Shown: positions 8,670 through 19,846 of the stretch, piece by piece | How positions within the stretch are numbered: position 1 is the first letter of the stretch | Layout: each line of letters opens with the position of its first letter | Assembly (NCBI GenBank): GCA_016201905.1 | Contig: JACQBQ010000022.1 | Span: 1 to 59,447 of the forward strand | Length of the DNA: 59,447 bases | Source of the DNA: Candidatus Melainabacteria bacterium | GTDB taxonomy: Bacteria > Cyanobacteriota > Vampirovibrionia > 2-02-FULL-35-15 | Direction: 5' to 3' | The notes under the pieces: model-generated | Databases searched by the model: none | Told to the model about the DNA's origin: nothing | The model's input: the letters and a program-made list of their open reading frames with translations, nothing else | Translations under genes and position numbers: made by a program

Positions 8670-11060
8670 TCAATTTCTGTTTTTCATATAATTCAACAGG
8701 GTTCTTACCTGATCAAGATAAGTACTTATATATAACGCCCTTTGTTCTCTCTTTAAATATTTTTCAAGGCTAAGCCAGTCTTTTACTTTTAATTGCAGGT
8801 TAATTATCTTCTTCTCAATTTCTTCGGTTTTATCTGGAGTGAAATTTTTAAAGTCATTTTTTAATTCTTTAGTCAAATAAAAAACATCTTTTTGAGTTTG
8901 ACTGTCAGCTAATATTGATAGCGTTTTTGTAACTGCAAATTTATCTATGACTGAAGAAAACTCTTCAAGCAACTGCTGACATGCAAGAAGGGGCTTATTA
9001 TATGGGATAAAGGCTTGTTCACGGAAAGGTCCTATTTTAAGCAAATCTTTCTTTAAGTCATTCAGATGCTCTGCTGCAAATAATGCCACCCCAAGCACGC
9101 CAGAATTTCTTGCTAAGGTTATTCTCTCTGCAAACTCTCCAATATTCAAGACTCTAAGATTAAAAGCTGGAATAATAACCGCTCCGTGATTCACGATTTC
9201 TTTTTCGCGCTCCAGCTTAGCTTTAATTTCATCTTTTGTATATGAATAATAAAAAGGATAAACAGCATCAACCCATTTGTTTAATAGCCAGCTTTCCCAG
9301 TCCTGTTGAATTATTCTTAATCTCAAAGAACGATCTATTCCAAAAACAGCAGCTGATATTTTTAATTTTGGTTTTATTTTTTTTAGCTCACCACTTAAAT
9401 CCCTGACAAAATCACTGACAATTTTAATCTTCCATTCAGTCCAGATCTTATTTACAGGGCCTTCTAACTGTGGAAGTTTACCTGTAGTCTCCTGAAAAGC
9501 ATTTTTTGACACAAAGTCAAAACCAACCTGTGAGTATGTTTGTTGGAATGGGAACCTGATATAGTCTAGCTGTAACCCATCTACATCATAATTACGAATG
9601 ATTTCACTAAACAACTCAGTTAAAAACGCACATGCCTTTTTATTTGCTGGACTTATCCAGTTTTCAGGCTGCATCTCTATCCTCAAAGCACCTCTTGCAC
9701 TTGTTAATGCCCAACTTCTGCCTTTACTAGAAACAATTGGTCCAGGGTACTGAACAGGCTGTCCAATGAGAAGATTGTGCCTGGTATTACCAACAGCAAA
9801 AGTCCAGACCCATGCATGCAATTCAACACCATAAGCATGAGCTGCTTCAACAGCCACTTTAAGCGGATCCCAGTTATTAACAAGAGGGTTTTGAGGCAAC
9901 AGCTTAGAAGGATAAATAGGATAACCAGCATTTATAGTTTCAAAAAAGATCACATTAAATCCTAATCTTGCAATGTTTTTAATCAAGTTTGCAAGCTCAA
10001 AGGCATCCTTCATGCTTACTATAGTTCCACGATCCAGCCAGATTGCACGAACTTCAACTTTCTTTACAGGTATGCCTAAAGAATAAACAATAGCAAACTC
10101 ATTTTTTGCAGCATCAGCATTTTCTCTTGCAAGCAAATAATTTTCAAACAAATAGTTTGAGTTAAAACTCTTAAACAAATTATTGCCATCATCAAAATGT
10201 TTTCTAAGCTGATACTTTGGAACGGGTAAATCTAATTGTTCTGTGATTTGAATTACTGAGTTTGCTTCTTCTTTTATTTTTGAAATTTCTGTTGAGATTT
10301 TCTTATATTCGTCTATTGTTATTTCTCTTGCCAGCCTTGAAGAAATACCATCCCAAAAATAATCCAATGTTTTTAAAAATGCTTTAATATCATTGCTTTT
10401 ATCAATGTCCTGCCCCCAACTATAACCAATATAAACCAGGCTCTTATTACCGCCAATTGCCACTTCATCATTCTCTTTCCACCTGCCAAAAATCTTTTTA
10501 CCGGGTCCTGAGATTTCAAAGGTAGAATAGAAATTCCCACTTGGAAGCTCAAAATAGACATCATCAAGTTTATGTTTTAAATTTAGCGTACGCTTTGCAA
10601 TTATATTCTCACTAATAATAATTCCATGTTCAGCTAAAAATGTTTTTAAACTGCCTGAAATTGGACCAACTCCACCGGTAATAATCAATTTTCCACCAGT
10701 ATCTATGAATTTGTTTAAAAAATCTCTTTCATCCTGGCTGATACTTATTGCCAACGGAAAAAAGATAACACGTACACCCAGATCATCAACCTTGGTTTCA
10801 GGAGAGATATTACATAAGAACTGATAATCTAAATATGTTTCCTGGAATGTCTCAAGAAATGGTTTCCATAGCTGATAAAACCCAACAATATCATTTATGC
10901 CATAGGATTCTACATTCTCATAACTGTACAAGACCCCAATCTTTTCTACATTCTTAGCATCTGATAGACTACAATTAAAAATACAAAAACAAAGAATTAA
11001 CAAAACAAAAATGCTTCTTTTACAGAAAACAAAACATTTACTTTTAAAAAGATTTACCAA
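8670..11060 (-). CDS. Secreted GHL10-family (DUF187) glycoside hydrolase-like protein
   Basis: The 796-residue product has a signal peptide (KRSIFVLLILCFCIFNCSLSDA), an N-terminal glutamine-amidotransferase-like domain (about 35-240), and a GHL10 TIM barrel (about 335-690: VRAIWLDRGTIVSMKDAFELANLI, GVELHAWVWTFAVGN, YDVDGLQLDYIRFPFQQ). A helical C-terminal region (700-796) follows. GHL10 proteins resemble YngK and are thought to cut cell-wall or extracellular glycans; the D of DGLQLDYIRFP is the conserved acidic position. The start is TTG with GAGGT 12 bases upstream. Its first 50 bases overlap the first 50 bases of the divergent phosphorylase gene. Confidence 0.75.
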   Translation of the reverse strand: MVNLFKSKCFVFCKRSIFVLLILCFCIFNCSLSDAKNVEKIGVLYSYENVESYGINDIVGFYQLWKPFLETFQETYLDYQFLCNISPETKVDDLGVRVIFFPLAISISQDERDFLNKFIDTGGKLIITGGVGPISGSLKTFLAEHGIIISENIIAKRTLNLKHKLDDVYFELPSGNFYSTFEISGPGKKIFGRWKENDEVAIGGNKSLVYIGYSWGQDIDKSNDIKAFLKTLDYFWDGISSRLAREITIDEYKKISTEISKIKEEANSVIQITEQLDLPVPKYQLRKHFDDGNNLFKSFNSNYLFENYLLARENADAAKNEFAIVYSLGIPVKKVEVRAIWLDRGTIVSMKDAFELANLIKNIARLGFNVIFFETINAGYPIYPSKLLPQNPLVNNWDPLKVAVEAAHAYGVELHAWVWTFAVGNTRHNLLIGQPVQYPGPIVSSKGRSWALTSARGALRIEMQPENWISPANKKACAFLTELFSEIIRNYDVDGLQLDYIRFPFQQTYSQVGFDFVSKNAFQETTGKLPQLEGPVNKIWTEWKIKIVSDFVRDLSGELKKIKPKLKISAAVFGIDRSLRLRIIQQDWESWLLNKWVDAVYPFYYSYTKDEIKAKLEREKEIVNHGAVIIPAFNLRVLNIGEFAERITLARNSGVLGVALFAAEHLNDLKKDLLKIGPFREQAFIPYNKPLLACQQLLEEFSSVIDKFAVTKTLSILADSQTQKDVFYLTKELKNDFKNFTPDKTEEIEKKIINLQLKVKDWLSLEKYLKREQRALYISTYLDQVRTLLNYMKNRN

Positions 11061-13299: not shown

Positions 13300-14296
13300 T
13301 TAGTAAGAGTTGATTTGATTTACTTCATTTTTAAGTGTACTAGCAACAGAAGCTTGTACTTGAGATGACAGTTCAGCAATGGATTTTTGTCCAGCTATAG
13401 TCTGTAACTTTCCTCTTAGTTCCAGTATTTTTCGAGCAGAAGAGTTTGCATTCCCTGTATCATTACTTAAAAATGTAGTTGCTTTGTTTAGCTCATTCTG
13501 CAATTCTTGTTTTATTTCTGTTTCTTCTGAAACAAGGACTTCAACAGGTTCCTCTATGATGATTGAACTCAGCAATATACCTAAATCAAGTGCTCTTCTT
13601 TTTGAAATTGCAAGAAAGCTGACGATTTCAGGATCATCAAGATAGTTATAGCTTGAATTGCTTGTGCTTGCTACGCCTGTAGAACCTATCCCTATAGTTA
13701 TTGAATTATTTGTGCTTGTGCCAGTATTGTTTGTTCCAGTTGAATTGCCTGTATTTGAAGTACCCGTGGTTGTTCCTGTTGAACTGCCTGTATTTGAAGT
13801 ATCTGTAGTTGTTCCTGTTGAACTGCCTGTATTTGAAGTATCAGTGGTTGTTCCTGTTGAACTGCCTGTATTTGAAGTATCTGTAGTTGTTCCTGTTGAA
13901 CTGCCTGTATTTGAAGTAAAGGGTTGTACCCTGATCCAGTGCAGAAAGGAGTGATTGCAGGTCTGTTACTCTTTGATTGACCCAGCCATTCGCTCTTGTA
14001 AGCTCTGACAAGCGTGCTGTTGCATCACTATCATTATCAACAGTGGTATTTGAAGATCCTATTAATTCAAGCTCATGTGTTCTTTCAGATTCCAGTTCTC
14101 TAGCAACTGCATTTATATCCGTGTTGTCTACCCCTTCAACATATACTCCTAGATACTGTCTTGTAATCAATGAAGTCAAAAGTGCTTCCAGCTGCATTAC
14201 TCTATGTTCTGAAACATCTGCCTCGTCAAGGTTATTAACTGGCGTGCTATTAGAATCTAAGCTTAAGTGAAGTGGCACTATTGAAAGTATAAACAT
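13300..14296 (-). pseudogene. Frameshifted repeat protein (two frames of one gene)
   Basis: Two minus-strand frames belong together. The 5' part (14296 to about 13918) encodes a helical region (QLEALLTSLITRQYLGVYVEGVDNTD). It runs out of frame at the start of a tandem repeat and would read arginine-rich nonsense (YFKYRQFNRNN). In the +1 frame the same DNA reads a natural Thr/Ser/Gly linker, TSNTGSSTGTTTD repeated, and continues open through the 91-residue C-terminal region to 13300. One extra T in the CCCTTT run near 13919 explains everything. The intact product would be about 330 residues: helical head, 13-residue repeat linker, helical tail. The frameshift may be a real lesion or an assembly error. 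The function is unknown. Confidence 0.65.
13742..13917. repeat. 39-bp tandem repeat, about 4.5 copies
   Basis: Unit starts at 13742, 13781, 13820, 13859 and 13898 are spaced exactly 39 bp, each opening GAA(T/C)TGCCTGTATTTGAAGT. On the minus strand each unit encodes the 13-residue TSNTGSSTGTTTD linker. Copy-number change would keep the reading frame. Confidence 0.9.
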
Positions 14297-14771: not shown

Positions 14772-16709
14772 TCAACCTACTACATCAGTTTTTACACAAA
14801 ATGTTTTTGGACTTTTAAAACAAATACCACCAATTTCCAGTTCTTTAGTCCAACTGTTTTTTTTAACAGGCATCCAGCTTTTTAATTCCATTGAATCTAA
14901 TTTCTTTCTATTACATTCAAAGCAGCATGCAAAAAGATTTTCTGTATCAAAATTAAACTGCGGCATCTTACTCACAGGTAAGTAATGGTCATAAGAAGCA
15001 GAGTGCTCCCTCAAGATATGATTTGTTACTTCTTTCCCATCTTCATTTATATATGTAATAAAGGCATCTTCTGCTTCTTTTATTGCAGACTTAACGGTAT
15101 CTGGATCTAATAACTGCTTTCCACAATAAACACAACTCCAATTATCTCTCTCCCATACTTCATAAAGAAGCTTTTCAGGTGGCTTTTTCCGTATTTGTTT
15201 CTTTACACTATCATCGTTCAAAGAAGGCTGAATAAGTTTTTTTTGAATCGCAGGCTCGCTGTAGGAATAGTTTTTGAATATTTCAGCAGCTAATTCTGAC
15301 AAAGAATTAAAAAATTCCTTTTGATAACTCTGATCTCCAATAACTTCACCGCTAAATATAACTTGTACATTTTCATCAAAAATTGTACCTACTTCAAATA
15401 TTGTTTTATTTCCAATTTTTGTCATCTTGGCTATCGGTTTATCAGAATGAATTAACTTACATTTCAAATTATCAACAGAAAAGAGGGACAAAGTACTTAA
15501 GTTTTGCCCACCAGAGGCTGGTCCACCTTTGGCGGAAGGTCTTGAGGTCTTGAAGTCCTGAAGTTCTGAGGTTTTGCCCGCCAGAGGTAACTCCACCTTT
15601 AGCAGAAGATCTGTAGGTCTTGAGATTACAGGACTTTGAAGTTCTAAATTACTGTGACCATTTGCTACCACTTCCTTATTATTTTCAGGGAGTGAATAAA
15701 GAGATTTTTCCTTATATTCCTTCTTATAGTGTTCTGCTATTGCACTTTGAATAGAGCGTAAAACCAGGCTGTAAACATCATTTGGATTGTTATAGCGTAC
15801 TTCTTTTTTAGTAGGGTGAACATTTACATCTACAAAAGAAGTTTTAAAATTAAGGTTTAAAACTACAATAGGATATTTACCGGCAGGTAACAGTCCTTCA
15901 CATGCACTAAATATAGCTTTTGAAACTATTTGACATTTTATCGGACGATTATTTACAAATATAAAAATAGATTTCCTGTCTGCTCTAAAAACCTCCAGGG
16001 TACTTATAAATCCACTTAAATCCATAAAATCATTGTTTGATGAAATTGGAATTAGTTTATCTTTTAAATCAATTCCTAACAGTTCGACTATAGTTTGTTG
16101 AAAATTATTTGAACCGCTTGATTTTAATAAAACATTTTTATTGTTTAAAAGAGTAATAGCTGCCTTCGGTCGAGAAAGCGCTTCTGAAATTACAGCATCA
16201 TAAACATGCCCAATTTCTGTGGTTTCTGATTTTAGGAATTTTTGTCTGGCTGGGACATTGTAAAACAAGTCATCAATTTCAAAGGCAGTACCTATAGCTA
16301 TTGCAGAGGTTTTTTTATTTGTTTTTTCATCAGCAATTTTTAGTTCAAATCCATATTCCTGGTCTATGTGCTTTGATCTGCAGGTTATTTTACTTACTGC
16401 ACTAATTGAAGCTAATGCTTCCCCACGAAAACCCAGAGTTTTTATACTCCACAGATCATCAAAACGTTTAATTTTACTTGTAGCATGTCTGGCAAAAAGC
16501 AGATTTACATCGTCTGGATCAATTCCCATTCCATTGTCAGAGACTTTAATATATTTTCCGCTTCTTTCAATTTCAATTTCAATTTTTGTTGCACCCGCAT
16601 CAATAGAATTTTCTACAAGTTCTTTTACAACAGATGCCGGTCTTTCAATAACTTCACCTGCTGCAATTTTTTTTATTAAATCTTCTGAAAGCTGTTTTAT
16701 GTAACCCAT
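14772..16709 (-). CDS. mutL: MutL-type GHKL ATPase with a C-terminal HNH nuclease domain
   Basis: Residues 1-335 are a canonical MutL N-terminus: GEVIERPASVVKELVENSIDAGA, DNGMGI, ATSKI, TLGFRGEALASI, and the VDVNVHPTKKEVRY transducer end. The C-terminal dimerisation/endonuclease domain is not recognisable; I see neither a DQHA nor an E-rich endonuclease motif. Instead residues about 508-620 form an HNH fold: WERDNWSCVYCG (C526, C529), SYDHYLP (H575) and NLFACCFECNRKK (C596, C599). The linker (about 350-400) contains repeat-derived sequence. The ORF is continuous, so the join is not a frame artefact within this sequence. Expected role: mismatch repair with a nicking activity supplied by HNH (inference). 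Two operator palindromes lie at its 5' end. Confidence 0.85.
   Translation of the reverse strand: MGYIKQLSEDLIKKIAAGEVIERPASVVKELVENSIDAGATKIEIEIERSGKYIKVSDNGMGIDPDDVNLLFARHATSKIKRFDDLWSIKTLGFRGEALASISAVSKITCRSKHIDQEYGFELKIADEKTNKKTSAIAIGTAFEIDDLFYNVPARQKFLKSETTEIGHVYDAVISEALSRPKAAITLLNNKNVLLKSSGSNNFQQTIVELLGIDLKDKLIPISSNNDFMDLSGFISTLEVFRADRKSIFIFVNNRPIKCQIVSKAIFSACEGLLPAGKYPIVVLNLNFKTSFVDVNVHPTKKEVRYNNPNDVYSLVLRSIQSAIAEHYKKEYKEKSLYSLPENNKEVVANGHSNLELQSPVISRPTDLLLKVELPLAGKTSELQDFKTSRPSAKGGPASGGQNLSTLSLFSVDNLKCKLIHSDKPIAKMTKIGNKTIFEVGTIFDENVQVIFSGEVIGDQSYQKEFFNSLSELAAEIFKNYSYSEPAIQKKLIQPSLNDDSVKKQIRKKPPEKLLYEVWERDNWSCVYCGKQLLDPDTVKSAIKEAEDAFITYINEDGKEVTNHILREHSASYDHYLPVSKMPQFNFDTENLFACCFECNRKKLDSMELKSWMPVKKNSWTKELEIGGICFKSPKTFCVKTDVVG
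15501..15624. repeat. Two copies of a repeat inside the mutL linker
   Basis: Two similar blocks of about 46 and 54 bases, at 15501-15546 and 15571-15624, each run from GTTTTGCCC(A/G)CCAGAGG to TCTTGAG with CCACCTTT(G/A)GC in the middle. They are translated in frame on the minus strand (VELPLAGKTS and SRPSAKGGPASGGQ). Their G/C content and internal palindromic character differ from the flanking mutL sequence, so they look like inserted repeats tolerated in a flexible linker. Confidence 0.6.
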
Positions 16710-16829: not shown

Positions 16830-18182
16830 TTAGCTCTCTGCTTGTCCAGGATTATTTCTTTCTATTCCTTGTAACATCTCTTCAATTATTGGCTTAACTC
16901 TGGGATCTTCTTTGTCATGTGCCATGCACTTTAAAACATATGGTATAACCCTTGGATCATCAATACTAAATAACGATACGAGCAAATAAAAACGATTATC
17001 AATATCAGGTTCTTCTAATAGATATTTATTTAATCCTTTATCTAATATTTCATCGCTTAAAGATTGAAGACTATTTCTTGCAAAGGTTTGAATCTTATTG
17101 GGGATTCTTATGGCTACAAGAAGTGCAGGCACTATAATAGGGTTTTTTGTCCTGACCAATGCTTCCAATGCACTAAGCTTCACTGCAAGGTCAGGTGCTT
17201 GAGAAAATATATTATACAAAACAGGAGCTGCTACTGACTCATTAAATCCACTAATTGCAATTGCTGCCTTTTTTACAGCTTCTGGATCTTCGTTATTTAG
17301 AATAGTTAGTATTAAATCATTTAGTAATTCCCCGCTTTGTATTTTTGTATTTCTAAGGAATTCTTCTGCTATAGAACGAAGTCTGGCATTAGGATCTCGT
17401 GAGCATTTTGCTAGTGCACTTGTTGCTTCATCGCTCGTTATATTAGATTCGGCTAATTTAGCTATTATACTTGCAGCATATTCTCTTGTTCTCATATCAT
17501 ATTCATCACTTAATAAAGGAATTGCTTCCTCCAAAGTTTTTTTATCTTTTATTCCACAGAGAATATCTCTTGCTCTTTCACGCCTAGAAATATCGTTATC
17601 TGCACGCAGGCAGGTTGCTAACATTTCAACTGCTTCAGCCTTTTCTAACTGCCCAAGCAGCATTGCAGCATTTACAGACACATCATAATATTCATTTTCT
17701 TCTAAGCATTCAACCAATATTTTAGCTAATAAGTCTATGCTTGTTTGGCTAATTTTATTTTTATTTCCTAAAACTATAGTTTCTAATGCATCAATGGAAT
17801 TAAGAACCAGCTCATTATCTTTGTCCTGTAAAGCCTTAGCTAATGGACTAATTGCTCTTGTATTATTCAGACTACCTAAAATCTGTGCACTAGCTCTGCG
17901 AGAAACAATATCACCTTTACTAAGTAGTTCAATCAAAGCATCAAATATATTTGGATCACTATTAAGATCATTATTATTTCGTAGTTCATTTATTGCATCA
18001 GTACGAAGCCCGGAATCAGGTGAACCTAAATTTGTAATTAGCTCAAATACTTCCGGAGATTCAAAATCACCCTCCTCAAAAGTAAGTCCACTTTCTTGAT
18101 CATCTTGAGCAGCAACTTCAGGTGTTTGCAGCAATTGATTTTTTGCAGGACCTGGGGCACCAGACGGTAAAATAGGTATCAT
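16830..18182 (-). CDS. HEAT-repeat protein, 450 aa
   Basis: After a Pro/Gly-rich, low-complexity N-terminus (about 1-45), the protein is a continuous alpha-solenoid of roughly 30-residue helical pairs (SDPNIFDALIELLSKGDIVSRRASAQILGSL, RAISPLAKALQDKDNELVLNSIDALE and so on), the PBS-lyase HEAT pattern. There is no signal peptide and no catalytic domain, so it is probably a cytoplasmic scaffold. It is divergent from the LRV-repeat gene across a 173-base gap. The partner is unknown. Confidence 0.75.
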   Translation of the reverse strand: MIPILPSGAPGPAKNQLLQTPEVAAQDDQESGLTFEEGDFESPEVFELITNLGSPDSGLRTDAINELRNNNDLNSDPNIFDALIELLSKGDIVSRRASAQILGSLNNTRAISPLAKALQDKDNELVLNSIDALETIVLGNKNKISQTSIDLLAKILVECLEENEYYDVSVNAAMLLGQLEKAEAVEMLATCLRADNDISRRERARDILCGIKDKKTLEEAIPLLSDEYDMRTREYAASIIAKLAESNITSDEATSALAKCSRDPNARLRSIAEEFLRNTKIQSGELLNDLILTILNNEDPEAVKKAAIAISGFNESVAAPVLYNIFSQAPDLAVKLSALEALVRTKNPIIVPALLVAIRIPNKIQTFARNSLQSLSDEILDKGLNKYLLEEPDIDNRFYLLVSLFSIDDPRVIPYVLKCMAHDKEDPRVKPIIEEMLQGIERNNPGQAES

Positions 18183-18355
18183 AAAACCTTTCTATTAAAA
18201 TTAGCCTCTATTAAACAACATTCACGCCTTAATGATCAATACTCAAAGATTAAATTTTTTTAATGTTTGAGAAATTGCACGAGTATAGTTTGATTTTTAG
18301 TCATTAAACCTTAACCCATTTCAACAAATTACAATGTTACTATTATTTCCAACTT

Positions 18356-19846
18356 ATGAGTACCATTAGAATTATTGCTTCAGCCTTTGTAAATGCAGGT
18401 TTATTTCTAGCTCAGAGCGAACTCAAAGCAACACAATCTGCTCAAAACGCAACAAAGCCAGTGCCTGCTCAAGCTGCCAAGCTTGATACTGGATTTAATA
18501 AAGAAAAAGTTAAAAAAATGATTGGTGATCTTGATAGTGGTTTATTTGCCACAAGAGAAAAAGCTACATCAGAACTTGTAATCGGACTTGCATTATCAAA
18601 TGATTTATTTCCTTACGTACTAGATGAGTATCCTAAAGCCTCTCTTGAAGTACAACGCAGGCTTGACCGCATGATAAAAAAGATTATTGGTCAAAGAGGT
18701 ATTTATCTAGCTAGTGATGAGAAAACCAATCTAAATACATTTAAATATTTAGCTGAGCATGGTGGTTATCCTATTAAGATAAGACTGCTTTTTAACAAAG
18801 GTTTTACTGATGAGAACAGCATGAGTTTAATTCTCAATGAACTGCCAGATGATGTGTTAGGACATTTAGTAAGTGTAACTAATCGTGCATTAGTTCTGGA
18901 TGTTTTAAGAAAAAACGAGATTGAGAAAAAAATTCACTTTGAAAACTATCTTGCAAAAAATCCAAGCATTACTGAAGAAACCATGGAAAAATTTGCTAAT
19001 AGTGAAAATGTTGTTGTCAGATTTAGTGTTGCAGCAAATAGAAGCCTCACAAAAGAACTACTTGAAAAGCTAGCTCAGGATAAAGATTCCAATGTTAGAG
19101 CAGCTGTTGCAGCAAATAGAAGTACCAAAAAAGAATTACTTGAAAAATTACTTCAAGATGAATGTCCTGAAGTTGTACAAGCAGCTGCAGCAAATAAAAA
19201 CTTACCTAAAGAACTACTTGAACAATTAGCAGAATCTAAAAGACTCTATATTAGATTAGGTATTGCAGCAAATAAAAATACTCGTAAAGAAATACTTGAA
19301 AAACTAATTCAGGACGAATGCTCTGAAGTTATACAAGCAGTGCTAGCAAATGAAAACTTGTCTAAAGAACTACTTGAACAATTAGCAAAATCTGAAAGAC
19401 TCTATATTAGATTAGGTGTTGCAGCAAATAAAAATACTCGTAAAGAAATACTTGAAAAATTACTTCAGGACAAATGTCCTGAAATTAGGCAAGAAGCTGC
19501 GGGAAATGAAAGCTTACCTAAAGAGCTCCTTGAACAATTAGCAGAATCTACAGATCGCTATATTAAAGCTGGTATTGCACAAAATAAAAACACTTCAAAA
19601 ATAAAAGGATTGCTTGAAAAACTAGCTAGAGATGTGGCTCCTTTTGTTAGATATCATGTTATATATAATAATAATGTTACTTTAGAATTGCTCATAGAGC
19701 TTGGGACATATGATAATAATAACCATAACAGGAACGTAGCTAGATTTATGCTAAATAAGTGCTGGTCTAATTATTTAACAGGTTTAATTGATTCAAGTCT
19801 AAATCAAGAAAGATTTCTTAGATTTTTACCTTTTCATTTATTTTAG
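18356..19846 (+). CDS. Exported LRV/HEAT-like repeat protein, 496 aa
   Basis: The N-terminus looks like a signal peptide (about 1-25: [16 protein letters not shown]). From about residue 195 to 430 there are at least eight near-identical repeats of about 24 residues, of the form [20 protein letters not shown], with consensus N-(K/R)-x-(T/L)-xKE-(L/I)LE-(K/Q)L. This is the leucine-rich repeat variant (LRV) pattern. DNA identity between neighbouring repeats is high, indicating recent expansion. The last 29 bases overlap the 3' end of convergent clpB. It is probably a binding protein outside the cytoplasm. Confidence 0.7.

Follow-up and report, generated by a model that had tools for sequence, protein, structure and literature searches.

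The MutL_C domain is thought to do two jobs, dimerising MutL and nicking the new DNA strand under clamp control, and the locus described here raises the question of how mismatch repair may be started by a MutL that carries an HNH nuclease instead of this domain. The gene lies in a stretch of 59,447 nucleotides (hereafter the window) from a Candidatus Melainabacteria bacterium, whose draft genome of 2.28 Mb is 99% complete in 59 contigs. An earlier note, made from the sequence alone, had proposed that a complete MutL ATPase half and an HNH domain are encoded there in one open frame, and we found this frame to span exactly 14772-16709 on the minus strand and to encode 645 amino acids. From its N- to its C-terminus, the protein has a MutL ATPase half at residues 1-341, then a variable linker and a small unassigned domain at 410-480, and lastly an HNH domain at 507-630; the corresponding features are the following:

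14772..16709, minus strand: the mutL-HNH gene (645 aa), an open reading frame with an ATG start, whose architecture is common to 24 genomes
15720..16709, minus strand: MutL GHKL ATPase and S5-like domain (residues 1-330), from TIGR00585, PF01119 and invariant motifs
15483..15719, minus strand: variable linker (residues 331-409), which aligns poorly and has a dN/dS above that of the flanking domains
15270..15482, minus strand: small middle domain (residues 410-480), from an AF2 model and low dN/dS
14820..15191, minus strand: HNH nuclease domain (residues 507-630), from PHROG and Pfam HNH matches and dN/dS
15123..15134, minus strand: CVYC, the first zinc-ligand pair (C526/C529), invariant in 24/24
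14985..14990, minus strand: D574-H575, the HNH general-base motif, invariant in 24/24 and aligned to DH 581-582 of 4ogc
14937..14939, minus strand: N591, the middle Asn of the HNH motif, invariant in 24/24
14910..14924, minus strand: C596-x-x-C599-N600, the second zinc pair and metal-site Asn, invariant in 24/24 and aligned to CERCN 602-606 of 4ogc

The ATPase half is indeed complete. The MutL equivalog model TIGR00585 matched residues 4-341 (E=4e-125), Pfam DNA_mis_repair (PF01119) covered residues 209-324 and solved MutL N-terminal structures were matched by residues 3-322 (E=6e-66). The features of MutL membership, GHKL ATPase motifs and an S5-like domain, are present, and the ATPase residues E30, N34, D58/G60/G62, GFRGE (93-97) and K301 are invariant in 24/24 related proteins. 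With a single TIGR00585 match above cut-off in the whole genome, this protein is also the only MutL of the organism. A Pfam search detected no MutS domain in it; MutS1 is encoded separately.

As for the other end of the protein, PHROG HNH-endonuclease families matched all 17 C-terminal halves that were tested (E=7e-9 for the window protein, 5e-12 at best), while the Pfam HNH match was marginal for the window protein alone (E=0.11) and reached 1.5e-5 in the best relative. A profile match to the HNH nuclease 4ogc was also marginal (E=0.5), but it placed DH on 581-582 and CxxCN on 602-606, which we take to be catalytic and zinc positions of that enzyme. The membership motif of zinc-stabilised HNH domains (CxxC ... 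DH ... N ... CxxCN) is present; C526/C529, H575 and C596/C599, singled out in the earlier note, all lie where it had put them and, together with D574, N591, N600 and K603, are invariant in 24/24 related proteins, whose HNH domains also share the flanking motif L..(I/V)W.(R/K)D...CVYC.(K/R).L..P. Among pairs without saturated synonymous sites, pairwise dN/dS was 0.07-0.22 for the HNH region, comparable to the 0.05-0.16 of the ATPase half, indicating that the HNH domain is selected rather than a decaying appendage. Structure prediction from a two-sequence alignment was too shallow for the beta-beta-alpha metal fold of HNH nucleases or a dimer: the full-length AF2 model had a mean pLDDT of 32, and in the C-terminal model the HNH part lay almost wholly below 50, only the middle domain being folded. 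Neither a plasmid nor a phage source for the HNH domain could be retained, plasmid matches being weak and limited to stand-alone HNH proteins and phage matches being absent, with one viral contig at 22% identity.

When a profile of the full protein was searched across 382 genomes of the class Melainabacteria, which are uncultured relatives of cyanobacteria, full-length matches to the fusion were found in 24 species-level genomes belonging to 17 genera and three families (10 in f1, the family of the window genome, 9 in f4 and 5 in f6), each time in one open frame. These 24 are every f1, f4 and f6 genome with a match among the matches listed, 13 matchless genomes not being listed by name; one f1 genome (79% complete) had no mutL match. 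In other families, the listed match stops in the ATPase half or linker. Elsewhere in Cyanobacteriota, no MutL-HNH was found beyond the known class members in 386 genomes sampled at phylum level, and an insensitive scan of 84,980 genomes, the sole test outside this phylum, yielded a single relative, which belongs to the same family, so that a wider occurrence is left open. Separately, in several near-complete f5 genomes (genera g71, g72 and g76), the MutL match was absent or very weak, which suggests loss of mutL.

Searches with MutL_C and HNH models matched HNH (PHROG, and Pfam in relatives) but not MutL_C: PF08676 had no match in the window protein or anywhere in its genome, while 11/14 control genomes were positive. 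Among 43 genomes tested, MutL_C was found in none of the 24 with the fusion and in all 19 sister genomes without it. MutH (PF02976) was likewise missing from 24/24 MutL-HNH genomes, and the metal motifs of MutL endonucleases (DQHAX2EX4E, ACR and CPHGRP) do not occur in the window translation. A standard MutL_C between residues 400 and 510, or relatives in which mutL and HNH are separate genes together with an assembly break at this locus, would have overturned the proposal of the earlier note; Pfam and profile-profile comparison revealed no such domain, and fusion genomes have no separate MutL_C or MutH gene. The metal motifs named above mark MutL endonucleases, and [DE]QH(x3)ER(x3)E is part of the defining set (PMC10366529). 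The sister MutLs that were read have this motif intact, and CPHGR too wherever the tail is visible, and the cyanobacterial MutLs that were read have both. Since sister MutLs keep the endonuclease motif, the ancestor most likely had an intrinsic nickase in MutL_C; judging from these sequences, a nuclease-competent MutL_C was thus most likely ancestral and then replaced in the MutL-HNH lineage.

In a tree of the ATPase half, the HNH members form an f4 clade and an f1+f6 clade, which are either one clade or two adjacent ones, and MutL-HNH has its place inside the class's own MutL tree, having been inherited with the organism. Forcing the HNH members into one clade gave a slightly better likelihood and was not rejected (AU p=0.62), so that the tree is compatible with a single origin of the swap. 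The shared HNH flanking motif and adjacency to clpB also fit one origin: the immediate neighbour of mutL is clpB in most genomes of f1 and in several of f4, while in ten sister neighbourhoods inspected it was seen once, several kilobases off. This side-by-side position with clpB is a housekeeping context for mutL-HNH. In the window itself, two HEAT/LRV-repeat genes (16830-19846) separate mutL and clpB, adjacent in most f1 relatives. On the other side, 13300-14296 holds minus-strand open reading frame fragments with a 39-bp tandem repeat (13731-13918, 4.8 copies, 93%). In 'Candidatus Melainabacteria bacterium RIFCSPHIGHO2_02_FULL_34_12' (L034), their homologue at 9011-10009 reads as a single frame of 333 aa, and a frameshift at the repeat is therefore possible in the window copy.

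The linker that had been noted before the HNH domain is real and variable, with a dN/dS mostly of 0.19-0.57 (0.10 in one pair) that is higher than that of the flanking domains, but it does not fill the whole interval, where a domain of about 70 residues (410-480) also sits. This middle domain is predicted as a sheet of four strands with a long helix after it (pLDDT about 75, AF2 from a two-sequence alignment), and its low dN/dS points to purifying selection. A string within it, DQSYQKEFFNSL, superficially resembles DQHAxxERxxYE, and we considered a hidden MutL_C remnant; the DQ is not conserved among relatives, and profile-profile comparison by hhalign showed no similarity to MutL_C (probability 0.1). 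Foldseek found no match to its fold at E<=0.001, and the best Z scores from VIA (at most 6.7, to SecB, roadblock and longin-like chains) were not above background. The domain is a candidate replacement dimerisation or interaction domain, its role in dimerisation being inferred. One f6 genome (G030) encodes a MutL-HNH (L056) without the middle domain; this genome shows no MutS1, yet the HNH active-site residues are all intact.

How such a protein would find the new strand had been left as a question by the earlier note, and the partner MutS offers a partial lead, although strand choice itself remains inferred. MutS1 is present in 21/24 MutL-HNH genomes and was not found in G005, G013 and G030. 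In the window genome, MutS (L124) is a complete protein that has both GDFYE and a Walker A motif and ends in ...ESGQLSLFS. Two other f1 MutS proteins end in the same way, f4 examples end in ...SLPLF... or have ...LRPLF... near the end, and the one f6 MutS read has no clamp-type ending. Peptides that bind the beta clamp have QL(S/D)LF as their consensus. The canonical clamp contact of MutL reportedly lies in MutL_C, to go by the titles of the Pillon papers cited in PMC10366529, and would therefore have gone along with that domain in MutL-HNH. No conserved clamp-binding motif was detected in the HNH-MutLs, scattered matches occurring in 8/24 against 4.2-4.4 expected from shuffles; an LxLF-like string around residue 406 is shared by only some of the f1 members and is not claimed as such a motif. 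With the MutL_C contact gone and no replacement motif conserved, the simplest model is that strand orientation comes through MutS. Another MutS-family protein, MutS2 (TIGR01069), was above cut-off in none of the 24 MutL-HNH genomes and in all 12 sisters tested (618-841 bits), so that its loss and the MutL swap go exactly together in these genomes.

As far as sequences can tell, the fusion, the loss of MutL_C and MutH, the intact ATPase and HNH sites, the purifying selection and the co-occurrence with MutS are established. We consider it probable that this protein is the functional mismatch-repair MutL of a Melainabacteria lineage and that an HNH nickase replaced MutL's own in an otherwise ordinary MutS-MutL pathway, although the nicking, the dimerisation and the choice of strand are all inferences. 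An ancestor would have lost the endonuclease and dimerisation domain MutL_C, which was replaced by the small middle domain and the HNH nuclease. MutS, tethered to the replication clamp through its C-terminal QLSLF, would detect the mismatch and load MutL; upon ATP binding, the N-terminal MutL dimer would close on DNA, and the HNH domain, on its flexible linker, would take the role of MutH or MutL_C by nicking the new strand. Dimerisation may be ensured by the middle domain or by the ATPase domains alone, and strand choice would be made via the contact between MutS and the clamp. Counting against this explanation are the lack of biochemical or genetic data, the three genomes that show no MutS1, the G030 protein without a middle domain, the absence of a conserved clamp motif in HNH-MutLs and structure models that are too shallow. 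A third solution to nicking, as the earlier note had put it, is the best-supported reading, but its nicking, dimerisation and strand choice are biochemically unshown; the version in which this solution evolved independently and MutL_C was dropped whole for an HNH nickase and a new small dimer domain, with clamp coupling resting wholly on MutS, has in our view an even chance of being right.

With two HNH domains per MutL dimer and no conserved clamp motif in these proteins, it is possible that both strands are cut near the mismatch and then repaired by recombination, in the manner of NucS/EndoMS; we find this unlikely, for most of these genomes keep MutS1, and a window MutS ending in QLSLF fits classical strand-directed repair. 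We similarly doubt that MutL-HNH serves another MutS-linked task, such as limiting recombination, with the HNH domain cutting recombination intermediates instead of acting on replication errors: this could relate to the MutS2 loss in the same clade and to the three HNH genomes that show no MutS1, but MutL-HNH is the sole MutL, is inherited in the MutL tree of the class and is accompanied by MutS1 in most genomes, and MutS2 may have been lost just once, in the ancestor of the clade and without any relation to MutL. It is very unlikely that the HNH domain merely binds DNA without cutting it, with the nick supplied by an unknown separate nuclease, given that all catalytic positions and not zinc ligands alone are invariant across 17 genera and that MutH and MutL_C are missing from the genomes, even if zinc-stabilised HNH folds do bind DNA and cleavage has not been shown here. 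Finally, an assembly chimera, or a mutL that runs by chance into an adjacent HNH gene, imaginable in a draft of 59 contigs, is refuted by the recurrence of this open frame in 24 genomes of 17 genera, on several contigs exceeding 100 kb, so that the fusion is not an assembly artefact and the break envisaged in the earlier note does not exist.

The HNH nickase that we favour can be compared with several known systems. The protein shares with the MutL_C endonucleases of Bacillus subtilis, Aquifex aeolicus and human PMS2 type a GHKL ATPase half whose catalytic residues are invariant, a nuclease carried on the same chain, the absence of MutH and a MutS1 partner; unlike them, it has lost the nuclease-dimer domain with DQHAX2EX4E, ACR and CPHGRP and has an unrelated middle domain and an HNH domain instead. 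As in E. coli MutL-MutH, a MutL ATPase would direct a nuclease of a different fold, but this nuclease is fused and of HNH type, whereas MutH is a separate protein with a restriction-enzyme fold, and the window MutL also lacks the MutL_C dimerisation domain. An HNH nuclease at the C-terminus of a mismatch-repair protein is also known from MutS7, in octocoral mtMutS and mimivirus MutS (PMC3166940); in contrast to that self-contained repair protein idea, the HNH domain is here on MutL and MutS1 is separate. MORC/paraMORC GHKL-S5 ATPases likewise go together with HNH nucleases, which are encoded by adjacent genes in restriction-modification operons (PMC2292703), but they are not MutL orthologues, and the window gene is fused and stands beside clpB and pgk. 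The motif CxxC ... DH ... N ... CxxCN ... K is also that of stand-alone HNH nucleases from phages and cyanobacteria, whereas the window domain has about 36 more residues than phrog_2118 (111 residues over 75 profile positions) and is part of MutL.

We found no description of MutL-HNH in the 5.39 million open-access papers searched, a literature that did not cover subscription papers and preprints, and our findings point to a third way of starting mismatch repair that is undescribed in that literature. A lineage in which MutL_C has been wholly replaced is a natural separation of the dimerising and nicking jobs, and it allows direct tests of whether MutL's own clamp contact is needed for strand choice, of whether a C-terminal dimer is necessary for MutL in the first place and of the minimum that a nuclease must offer to plug into MutS-MutL repair. 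Moreover, a natural fusion of ATPase and HNH that is gated by the recognition of a mismatch could be put to use as a mismatch-dependent nickase.
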